In this document: piece by piece, positions 19,659 through 22,334 of the stretch
Position numbering within the stretch: position 1 is the stretch's first letter
Layout of the letters: every line of letters starts with the position of its first letter
From: Bacteroidota bacterium
GTDB lineage: Bacteria > Bacteroidota > Ignavibacteria > Palsa-1295
Length of the DNA stretch: 64,000 nt
Assembly: GCA_018266755.1 (NCBI GenBank)
Contig: JAFDZW010000007.1
Span: 62,001-126,000 of the forward strand
Reading direction: 5' to 3'
Notes under the pieces: generated by a model
The model's database searches: none
What the model was told of the DNA's origin: nothing
The model's input: only the letters and a program-made list of their open reading frames with translations
Made by a program: the position numbers and the translations under genes

Positions 19659-19787
19659 GACGCGCCATGGCGCGTCTCTACACCGTCTTCGAGAGCACCT
19701 GATACACCGCTAACGCCGAGGCGACGCTGGCGTTGAGGGATTCGGTCTTGCCGCGCAGGGGGATCTTCACGACGTCGTCGCAGCGCT
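19659..19787 (-). repeat. 129-bp repeat copy A (palindrome plus rlmB 3' end)
   Basis: This block aligns without gaps to 20327-20455. By my count the copies differ at 10 of 129 positions: four in the centre of the palindrome and six in the coding part. The palindrome GACGCGCCATGGCGCGTC (19659-19676) is perfect. Confidence 0.92.
19678..19787 (-). pseudogene. Truncated rlmB 3' fragment
   Basis: On the minus strand this encodes the last 36 residues of an RlmB methyltransferase (RCDDVVKIPLRGKTESLNAS, then VASALAVYQVLSKTV) with its stop codon. Relative to the intact rlmB at 20346-21137 only one residue differs (Thr for Ser, second from last), while five of the six coding base changes are synonymous. 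There is no methyltransferase coding sequence upstream of it, so it is a fragment, not a gene. It marks one border of the hicBA insertion. Confidence 0.88.
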
Positions 19788-19830
19788 GATTCTCAATATG
19801 CGATGCACGGACGGAGATCAATCAATCCCC

Positions 19831-20082
19831 TCACACCGGAAACAACCGTTGCAGCAGTTCTTCCTTTGAGATCTGAAAATGATCGGCTACTTCCCGAAGG
19901 ATCGAATTGAGGGTGCCGACTGGTATTGAGTCATGGATCGGGATAGTCACGAAATGCTCTCCGCTTTGCTCCGTTCGCAACCGTGCATGGCTGCCACGCT
20001 GTCGTACCGGTTGGTAACCGAGGAGGGCAAGGCCTTTGATCAGTGCTTTGCCGGAGACGCCTCGCGGAGTCTTAGGACTCAT
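19831..20082 (-). CDS. hicA: HicA family mRNA interferase toxin
   Basis: An 83-residue double-stranded-RNA-binding-fold toxin. The core is VSGKALIKGLALLGYQPVRQ then RGSHARLR with the catalytic His at residue 32, HFVTIPIHDSIPVGTLNSIL and a C-terminal ISKEELLQRL helix. HicA cleaves mRNA and is neutralised by HicB. The ATG at 20082 is preferred over upstream in-frame starts because it gives the normal HicA length and overlaps the antitoxin gene by 11 bases. The pair lies between two rlmB 3' ends. Confidence 0.93.
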   Translation of the reverse strand: MSPKTPRGVSGKALIKGLALLGYQPVRQRGSHARLRTEQSGEHFVTIPIHDSIPVGTLNSILREVADHFQISKEELLQRLFPV

Positions 20083-20281
20083 AGACCTCTTCGTGAACGT
20101 AATGAAGCCTGATGATCTTCGGAGCCGTCCCTTCGTCAAAGTGGACATCCACTGCTTCGCGAATATTCTTCAGAAGTTCGACTTTGTCCTTGCCAAAGGT
20201 AAAGATCGCCTCACCGAGTGCGCGGGCATTCAGACCGCCGTCGACTTCATCTTCCTCAACCAGAAAAATGATCTCGTTCAT
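20072..20281 (-). CDS. hicB: HicB-like antitoxin
   Basis: A 69-residue protein with the partial RNase H-like HicB fold: MNEIIFLVEEDEVDGGLNAR, ALGEAIFTFGKDKVELLKNI, REAVDVHF. It has no DNA-binding tail, so it belongs to the short HicB class that often goes unannotated or is mislabelled. It binds and blocks HicA. The gene precedes and overlaps hicA by 11 bases, the antitoxin-first order. The ATG at 20281 gives the canonical N terminus; an in-frame upstream start at 20335 would run through the palindrome. Confidence 0.88.
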   Translation of the reverse strand: MNEIIFLVEEDEVDGGLNARALGEAIFTFGKDKVELLKNIREAVDVHFDEGTAPKIIRLHYVHEEVYES

Positions 20282-20326
20282 GTTATCTACAATCACTTGG
20301 CTGGGAGGTGCGTTCCCGGGGCCTAA

Positions 20327-20455
20327 GACGCGCATATGCGCGTCTCTACACCGATTTTGAGAGCACCTGATACACCGCGAGCGCCGAGGCGACGCTGGCG
20401 TTGAGGGATTCGGTTTTGCCGCGCAGGGGGATCTTCACGACGTCGTCGCAGCGCT
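20327..20455 (-). repeat. 129-bp repeat copy B (palindrome plus intact rlmB 3' end)
   Basis: Perfect palindrome GACGCGCATATGCGCGTC (20327-20344) and the last 110 bases of the intact rlmB gene. It pairs with 19659-19787. Both palindromes keep full base pairing although their centres differ. Confidence 0.92.
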
Positions 20456-21137
20456 CTTTGACGAGGCGGTGCATGCCTTTTTCTTCGTTGCCGATCACGA
20501 GCAGGACGTTGCCGCTCGTGTCGAGCTGGCCGATCTCTTTCTCGCCGTCGCCCGCGAGGCCGAGGCAGAGGAAGTGATGATCTTCTTTGAGGAGTGTGAT
20601 GGTCTCGGCAAGATTATTGACTTTGACTATGGGCAAATGCAATGCGGCACCAGCGCTCGTCTTGTACACGGCCGGCGAAAGCGCTGCGCCGCGTTTCGGG
20701 ATGAGCACGCCGTTCGCGCCGAGGGCTTCGGCCGAGCGGATGATGGCACCGATGTTATGCGGGTCCTCAATACCATCGAGCGCGACGAGCACGACTCTGC
20801 CCTTCTCTTGTTCGACCGTCACGAGATCATCAAGCTCCCAATAGATCACACCGCCGAGCAGGACGAGCACGCCTTGCGAATCGACACCGTTGGCGACGTT
20901 GCGCTCCAACTCGCCGAACTTGCGGCGATCGAGTTCGGAGAACGGGACTTTGTTCACTCGGAGGAAGTGTAGTATCTCGCCGATCTGCGGACCTTGCACA
21001 CCGTGCGCGATGTACACTTTCTCGATCTTCGTGCGGCGCTCGTCGTCTTTGAGCATTTCGAGCGCAGCGCGGCGGCCTGCCACATATTGTGGCATGAACT
21101 CGTCGCTTGGTCGCTTTACCTTTTTCTTTAGCTCCAC
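20346..21137 (-). CDS. rlmB: 23S rRNA (guanosine-2'-O)-methyltransferase RlmB, SpoU family
   Basis: A 263-residue SPOUT methyltransferase that would modify G2251 of 23S rRNA. The N-terminal substrate-binding domain has YVAGRRAALEML. The SPOUT core has motif 1 DGIEDPHNIGAIIRSAEALG, motif 2 VIGNEEKGMHRLVKERCDDV and motif 3 IPLRGKTESLNASVASALAV, which form the knot and bind SAM. Start is GTG at 21137, ten bases after nusB. The 3' end is the site of the duplication and hicBA insertion. It could act on tRNA, but the N-terminal domain favours RlmB. Confidence 0.92.
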   Translation of the reverse strand: MELKKKVKRPSDEFMPQYVAGRRAALEMLKDDERRTKIEKVYIAHGVQGPQIGEILHFLRVNKVPFSELDRRKFGELERNVANGVDSQGVLVLLGGVIYWELDDLVTVEQEKGRVVLVALDGIEDPHNIGAIIRSAEALGANGVLIPKRGAALSPAVYKTSAGAALHLPIVKVNNLAETITLLKEDHHFLCLGLAGDGEKEIGQLDTSGNVLLVIGNEEKGMHRLVKERCDDVVKIPLRGKTESLNASVASALAVYQVLSKSV

Positions 21138-21147
21138 GGTGGTCGTA

Positions 21148-21702
21148 TCACAAACTCTGTTCGAGCAGGCCGCGACCTTCCTTCTTCATGTCGCCGCTCT
21201 TGGTGAGGTCTTCTTTGATCGCGTGCAAGATACCGTTAATGAACTTGCCGCTTTCTTCGGTAGAAAAATCCTTTGCGATCTCGATGAGTTCGTTGATCGT
21301 CGCCTTCGGCGGGACTTCGGGAAAATACTTGAACTCGAGGATGCCGATCTGGATAAGGATTCGGTCAACAAGTGCGACACGCGAGACATCCCAGTGCGCC
21401 AGATGTCGCGAGATGATCTCGTTGAGCTCGTTCTTATGCTGGTTGTACGCACGCATGAGTTGACGTGCAAACTCGATCCCTTGTTCGGCAAGCAACGGAT
21501 CGCTCGAGACCATTTCGAAGAATATCTCGTCGGTATCGCGTTCGTTGATGACGTGCGCATAGATCGCCTGCATCACACGTTCGCGTGCGATGCGTCGGCG
21601 CGCGAGGTGCTTATCACGCTCCGGGTCGTTCTCGAATACCTCGTCGGTTTCGATCCGCGGAATTGGTGCTTCGTCGCCTTGCGACGATGTATACGTAGAC
21701 AT
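21148..21702 (-). CDS. nusB: Transcription antitermination factor NusB
   Basis: A 184-residue all-helical NusB, with ARRIARERVMQAIYAHVINE, a middle region with HWDVSRVALVDRILIQIGIL, and TINELIEIAKDFSTEESGKF followed by INGILHAIKEDL. NusB with S10 binds boxA and supports rRNA transcription. It has an acidic N-terminal extension of about 35 residues compared with the E. coli protein. I start at ATG 21702; longer frames run into the upstream gene. It is 8 bases after the SurA-like gene and 10 before rlmB, forming a compact operon. Confidence 0.93.
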   Translation of the reverse strand: MSTYTSSQGDEAPIPRIETDEVFENDPERDKHLARRRIARERVMQAIYAHVINERDTDEIFFEMVSSDPLLAEQGIEFARQLMRAYNQHKNELNEIISRHLAHWDVSRVALVDRILIQIGILEFKYFPEVPPKATINELIEIAKDFSTEESGKFINGILHAIKEDLTKSGDMKKEGRGLLEQSL

Positions 21703-21710
21703 GGGTACGG

Positions 21711-22334
21711 TTAATAAAATCCGAATGCGGGTCGTCGGTCGTCGATCTCGGCCCGTGTTGCGCGCTTGGCGATCCAAGCGTCGATCGCTTGCTTGCGTTC
21801 GACATCGGTCGTTGCCTTTGGTGCAAGTGTACGCACCAAACCGTCGTACTGGAACTGCAGCCGGTAATAATGCACGACCTGATCACGCAATGAATCGGCA
21901 GCCTTCGAGTTTAGAAATTTACTGAGCTCCTGCGGAAAATACTTACCGGTCGAATCGGTGAAGCTCTGTTTGAGCAGCTCAGGGGGATGGGCAATCATAC
22001 GTTTGATCGTCTCGCCATCCGAAAGTTCGAGTTTCAGCTTCTTGATCTCCTGTTCGATGAGAATGTCGCCAATCATTTTCTCCCACGTCAGGTTCACAAA
22101 CTTCGTATAGAGCGAGTCCGATACTTTGCCGTTCGGGATCTCGGACATATGGTCTTTCATGGTCCGTTTGAGCTCGCCACGAAAATCGCGGAGCGTAATG
22201 AGCGTGCCGTTCACGACGCCGACGGTATCGGTCGGCAGGTGTTTTTTGGATGCGGCAGGAGGAATCGTCTGCGTCTGTGCGCTGACAGACGCGGCAAACA
22301 CGATCGCGGCGAAAAGAACGAGGGTCTTGAACAA
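21711..22334 (-). CDS. Exported SurA N-terminal-domain-like protein
   Basis: A 207-residue protein with a signal peptide (TLVLFAAIVFAASVSAQ). The mature part resembles the chaperone (non-isomerase) domain of SurA/PrsA: VGVVNGTLITLRDFRGELKR, LTWEKMIGDILIEQEIKKLK, and a helix typical of this fold. There is no parvulin PPIase domain. It would act in the periplasm. Start is TTG at 22334 with a strong AGGAG at 22343-22347. It sits between the carboxylate-amine ligase gene and nusB. Confidence 0.72.
   Translation of the reverse strand: MFKTLVLFAAIVFAASVSAQTQTIPPAASKKHLPTDTVGVVNGTLITLRDFRGELKRTMKDHMSEIPNGKVSDSLYTKFVNLTWEKMIGDILIEQEIKKLKLELSDGETIKRMIAHPPELLKQSFTDSTGKYFPQELSKFLNSKAADSLRDQVVHYYRLQFQYDGLVRTLAPKATTDVERKQAIDAWIAKRATRAEIDDRRPAFGFY

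Follow-up and report, generated by a model that had tools for sequence, protein, structure and literature searches.

A hicBA toxin-antitoxin (TA) pair in the window, the whole 64,000-nucleotide stretch of DNA that was analysed, is enclosed by a duplicated 3' end of rlmB, and the same layout recurs at many other gene ends and is enriched around HicA loci. At two of these genes, acnA and mutS of one genome (G007), the distal end looks native and the proximal end differs from it. The recurrence suggests that TA pairs spread by entering at gene ends, leaving the gene intact and with a spare end. The best reading is that a mode of insertion known for restriction-modification (RM) genes extends to TA pairs, where gene ends show signs of having been swapped.

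The hicBA cassette and its rlmB flanks

The initial annotation had placed a TA pair between two 129-bp copies of the rlmB 3' end with its palindrome, and the repeat, its period and the content of the cassette are all borne out (Table 1). The two copies of direct repeat D1 are 92% identical with a period of 668, and they enclose hicB and hicA alone. The gene order on the minus strand is nusB, rlmB, hicB, hicA and last the second, detached rlmB 3' end. The right, proximal copy is the true end of rlmB. The left, distal one is a remnant whose reading frame remains open (..KIPLRGKTESLNASVASALAVYQVLSKTV*) and which has a Thr-Val C-terminus, as compared with Ser-Val in the intact gene. No recombinase, transposase or integrase is present in the ORF list of the 539-bp cassette.

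Table 1. Features of the rlmB-hicBA locus, in coordinates of the window.
Feature	Coordinates	Strand	Evidence
nusB	21148-21777	-	
rlmB, intact, terminating in the proximal repeat copy	20346-21137	-	TIGR00186, 2.8e-57; PF00588/PF08032
Proximal copy, comprising the rlmB 3' end, its stop codon and the ATAT-core palindrome	20327-20455	-	direct repeat D1; junctions
GTAG-headed palindrome (REP-like), supplying the rlmB stop codon	20327-20349	-	pattern matches at ~20 genome loci
Cassette between the copies, 539 bp: hicB-hicA and short flanks only	19788-20326	-	ORF list; junction listing
hicB-type antitoxin (alternative ORF start 20335), stop overlapping the hicA start	20072-20281	-	44-56% identity to the proteins that immediately precede HicA at other loci
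hicA toxin (alternative ORF start 20148)	19831-20082	-	PF07927, 5.9e-13, above cut-off; profile matches to HicA structures 9svk, 4c26 and 6g26
Distal copy, comprising a detached rlmB 3' end that carries Ser>Thr, its stop codon and the CATG-core palindrome	19659-19787	-	direct repeat D1, 92%
Second palindrome copy, inside the distal repeat copy	19659-19681		

Judged from its sequence, the pair is a HicBA toxin-antitoxin system, with a clear HicA and an adjacent, overlapping HicB-type antitoxin; toxicity and neutralization are predicted. The antitoxin stays below the cut-offs of the Pfam and NCBIfam models, Pfam HicB included, and reaches no curated family. Its protein family is found directly upstream of HicA in eight loci.

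Comparable local enclosing repeats occur in about 1% of segments (4 of 461, counted in the window and in a limited set of stretches of its own genome), none of them being a gene end of the rlmB kind, and the rlmB repeat is well beyond chance expectation. None of the 26-27 rlmB loci checked in other genomes carries such a repeat. These loci are single-ended and without hicBA, so the same double end is not a property of all relatives, and the transfer proposed in the initial annotation is not refuted on this point.

The same layout at other gene ends

HicA loci were examined in the same bacterial family and then through a cross-phylum scan and a phylum search. In the sole congener, hicBA lies between copies of the last 18 nt of the 5S rRNA with its terminator (63 bp, 94%), and the genome of the rlmB locus itself holds a second hicBA between two 3' ends of ftsK, in the orientation opposite to ftsK (77 bp, 78%). 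HicA modules are also enclosed by duplicates of the acnA 3' end (55 bp, 87%) and of the purF 5' end (50 bp, 78%). The cross-phylum scan revealed, among others, the end of an HhH-GPD DNA glycosylase gene in Reyranella (97 bp, 97%), the end of a DUF1592 gene in Opitutaceae (85 bp, 86%) and a gene start in Chloroflexia (86 bp, 95%), each around a HicA module, to which the phylum search adds the end of a secreted-protein gene (L324) and a further gene end (L340). Two cases enclose other pairs: two copies of the asnS 3' end flank a DUF6883-DUF4926 pair (105 bp, 96%), with hicBA directly after the second copy, and two of the mutS 3' end flank an Unstab_antitox/RelE pair (81 bp, 85%). That hicBA and other TA pairs recur in this way at the ends of housekeeping genes agrees with the initial view of the locus as a small exchangeable cassette. 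The accompanying idea that rlmB is a special entry point does not stand, rlmB being one target among about a dozen that include 5S rRNA and two gene starts. A gene-end rule for TA pairs is not universal either, as ccdAB between folA and apaH in E. coli, examined as a population-scale case, shows no duplication.

The duplicated stretches comprise 3' ends and two 5' ends, in both orientations, and no core sequence is common to those of different genes. Gene ends are typical attachment sites of integrative islands, which restore them upon integration. A site-specific recombinase supplied in trans and using gene 3' ends as attachment sites, with the cassette as a non-autonomous element, would accordingly fit the choice of targets and the direct repeats that flank the cassette. 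However, neither an integrase gene in the 539 bp nor an attachment core shared by the repeats at different genes is found, and two of the targets are gene starts. The absence of a common core and of a recombinase, together with the use of both orientations and of both 3' and 5' ends, argues against a site-specific integrase as well as against a general role of the REP palindrome, and we regard a recombinase in trans as improbable. A 3' remnant would likewise be left if rlmB had been duplicated in tandem, with hicBA trapped between the copies, and most of the second copy then lost. Among the gene-end cases that were examined, however, just ~50-130 bp are left, and different genes show the arrangement; we regard such an origin as most improbable.

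Two of these loci show additional features. At asnS (L100, 3418-4810, genome G011), two TA-like cassettes are stacked at one gene end. Downstream of mutS, one of two sister species has the antitoxin and RelE (G008, L291) and the other the antitoxin only (G007, L292), with a mutS remnant in both.

Enrichment of enclosing repeats around HicA

Using a uniformly applied rule (a repeat of 40-300 bp on both sides, period <=1300), enclosing repeats were detected at 25 of 121 HicA loci, a set that is not fully independent and in which repeat-rich cyanobacteria inflate the figure, as compared with 10 of 336 control segments (Fisher, 8e-9). The controls break down into 0/29 for thioredoxin, 0/27 for rlmB and 10/280 for background segments, and the value for ParE/RelE loci is 2/28. 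Dispersed intergenic repeats form a large share of the HicA-enclosing repeats in cyanobacteria and other repeat-rich genomes. Loci L140, L141, L148, L150, L157, L158 and L207 are of this type; they are not gene ends and enter the any-repeat count only.

An automated gene-end criterion retained 10 of 121 HicA loci and 2 of 336 controls (5e-5), the former figure being approximate in both directions: doubtful members are included (L166, with simple repeats, and L195), and true cases, the 5S rRNA (L112) and a gene start (L183), were missed. For a further member (L182), the ORF that the criterion assigned to the side of the remnant is spurious, and the gene end is real. Both control matches come from a single locus (L194) in a Chthoniobacter MAG, where a gene 3' end (744-795 and 1847-1897) is duplicated 1.1 kb downstream around other cargo.

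More complex repeat arrangements were also observed. In genome G010, a 68-bp repeat present three times (L118, 471-538, 1172-1239 and 1734-1796) encloses two cassettes, one of them hicBA, with a RelE pair adjoining. In genome G019, a dispersed repeat of ~130 bp occurs at four places around a degenerate hicBA (L099, 960-1104, 1693-1770, 2343-2474 and 6345-6482), and may be an unrelated intergenic repeat family.

Differences between the two rlmB copies

The two rlmB ends differ at six coding positions in five codons, four of which are synonymous (AAA/AAG, CTC/TTA, TCA/TCG and AAA/AAG) and one of which exchanges Ser for Thr (TCG/ACG); this codon comparison agrees with the five synonymous differences and the one replacement listed initially. 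From this pattern, the initial annotation had concluded that both copies were under selection as rlmB. In simulations in which one copy is kept under purifying selection and the other evolves freely, the first six differences included no more than one nonsynonymous codon in 4-5% of runs (P 0.04-0.05), versus 0.34-0.85 when both copies are selected. Free decay of one copy is thus unlikely, with a marginal P value, and the inference drawn initially has moderate support but is not proven.

Comparison with other RlmB sequences does not assign the copies to a lineage. The sole congener has a single rlmB end and 63% RlmB identity, a search of genome contigs with RlmB found no relative, and distant relatives match either copy at the six differing sites.

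Native-looking and putatively incoming ends

The polarity of the two copies can be followed at other genes. For acnA of G007, the C-terminus of the relatives (PPEPVxA) is preserved in the distal copy, and the in-gene copy ends in PPVAA, as in G012. The distal copy aligns to G008 and G011 beyond the limit of the repeat, on into downstream DNA, and in these two genomes a single acnA end is contiguous with the DNA that follows the distal copy, as judged from a short alignment only. In mutS, G007 is 90-95% identical to G008 just upstream, and 75-82% in the last 120 bp. Of the two G007 ends, the distal remnant is the nearer to both G008 copies (70/79, versus 63/77 for the proximal end). Among 15 differing sites, G008 equals the distal copy at 10 or 11 and the proximal copy at 3, and G003 equals the proximal copy at 10 and the distal copy at 3. 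These alignments favor a gene end replaced by an incoming one at both genes, over 55 and ~80 bp, neither case being statistically strong alone, and the other relatives are divided on this polarity.

A different picture is given by ftsK, where the proximal copy matches most relatives better and the distal one is degraded, and by asnS, where the distal copy has a stop and nonsynonymous changes. The decay of these distal copies fits duplication at insertion followed by drift. Such an insertion with long target duplication, in which the host's own end is copied when the TA pair inserts, the copies being identical at first and the distal one decaying afterwards, is a tenable possibility for the whole set. 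It would fit the host duplications observed on both sides, which amount to 129 bp at rlmB and 50-105 bp elsewhere, affect unrelated sequences in both orientations and share no terminal sequence. It would also fit the duplications of the order of 100 bp with which RM genes are reported to insert (PMC3874152). On the other hand, an origin of both copies from the host's own sequence, compatible with ftsK and asnS, is contradicted at acnA and mutS of G007, where it is the distal copy that resembles the relatives rather than the one in the gene, and most of the rlmB differences are synonymous. The initial proposal that the incoming end replaces that of the gene therefore fits acnA and mutS of G007, and does not extend to ftsK and asnS, whose distal copies merely decayed. 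The codon positions of the differences, pooled over cases (18, 9 and 35), fit a mixture of decay and selection.

A possible route of insertion

For rlmB, the most likely reading, in which we place about even confidence, is that hicBA arrived as a bare 539-bp cassette at the gene 3' end, with duplication of this end, by recombination of incoming DNA that carried an end of its own. The incoming DNA would derive from a close relative, would already consist of an rlmB end, the palindrome and hicBA, and would recombine at the resident rlmB end. The substrate could be a circle, which needs one crossover in the stretch common to both ends, or a linear piece joined by homology at one side and illegitimately at the other. 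In this way, the gene would acquire the incoming end and the resident end would be left distal. Its function would be preserved, one complete end remaining fused to the gene and the other being pushed downstream as a remnant. We infer that rlmB followed the polarity seen at acnA and mutS, that the intermediate was circular or one-sided, and that TA addiction helped retention. Flanked by two copies, the pair could be passed on, and also deleted, by ordinary recombination between strains. A precedent for the first route is provided by single crossovers of circles with truncated homology in E. coli, which generated duplications of the homologous end of 109-950 bp (PMC3240628). The decayed distal copies of ftsK and asnS speak against recombination with an incoming end, as they are expected from a duplication of the host's own end, and end replacement and duplication at insertion may both operate. 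It is a more doubtful proposition that small TA pairs are, as a class, end-swapping mobile cassettes that carry a housekeeping gene end as homology arm, use ordinary recombination to enter whichever genome has this gene, and leave a fresh end, needing no recombinase of their own and leaving the target unbroken.

Relation to known systems

RM genes are reported to insert with long target duplications (Nobusato 2000; Furuta 2010). As citing papers describe these insertions, the resemblance is close: a selfish gene pair lies between host duplications of ~100 bp, no mobility gene is present and the target is preserved. The cases studied here differ in their TA cargo, in their targets, which are mostly gene ends including 5S rRNA, and in the foreign appearance of two in-gene ends. 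In homology-facilitated illegitimate recombination and truncated-circle crossover (PMC3240628), one homologous stretch likewise anchors foreign DNA, but these are laboratory constructs and not natural TA cassettes. The displacement proposed for type VI secretion (T6SS) effector-immunity modules in Vibrio (PMC5361080) is similar in that the incoming module is anchored by the upstream gene and the old downstream part remains, whereas the anchor is a T6SS gene functionally related to the cargo, and no housekeeping gene ends are involved. A TA example is a ParE/ParD pair of Microcystis fenced by 152-bp direct repeats (PMC7935541). These repeats, unlike those at rlmB, are intergenic, lie 14 bp past the MaOC1 stop codon, contain an internal inverted repeat and are not described as a gene-end copy. 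Beyond this case, the literature, of which our coverage is incomplete, yielded no description of a recurrent placement of TA pairs between duplicated gene ends, or of swapped ends at such sites.

The movement between genomes of chromosomal TA pairs that lack a mobility gene is largely unexplained. The footprint of a TA pair between two gene ends, ~8-fold enriched around HicA, makes this question testable by simple scans and strain comparisons. It links TA pairs to the mobility proposed for RM genes, and explains how insertion at essential genes such as 5S rRNA and asnS is harmless.

The palindrome at the repeat boundary

The repeat boundary at rlmB coincides exactly with a palindrome (GTAGAGACGCGC-N4-GCGCGTC) that is found at ~20 places of the genome, many of them as inverted pairs. 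The rlmB stop codon is read from its leading GTAG (GTG TAG AGACGCGC), which supplies the stop at the same base in both copies. The palindrome consequently predates the parting of the two ends, and any donor would be a very close relative. Its core differs at all four bases between the copies, which accounts for the four non-coding differences of the repeat. This change is beyond point mutation at the rate of the rest, and needs a separate process.

A REP-associated transposase that moved the unit, with the GTAG palindrome of both copies as substrate, would explain why the repeat terminates exactly at the palindrome, and the element is of the right kind, with GTAG on its 5' side and ~20 loci, one of them beside a RAYT-like gene. 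The other gene-end cases, however, lack such a palindrome, so that it does not bound the moved unit in general, and the RAYT-like protein matches Pfam Y1_Tnp only weakly, below the cut-off; we consider this explanation very unlikely. Within the genome, the palindrome family clusters around the RAYT-like gene (G000:C5:769-772 kb, L103), with inverted pairs 76-330 bp apart, and the core tetranucleotide varies among the copies while the stem is kept.
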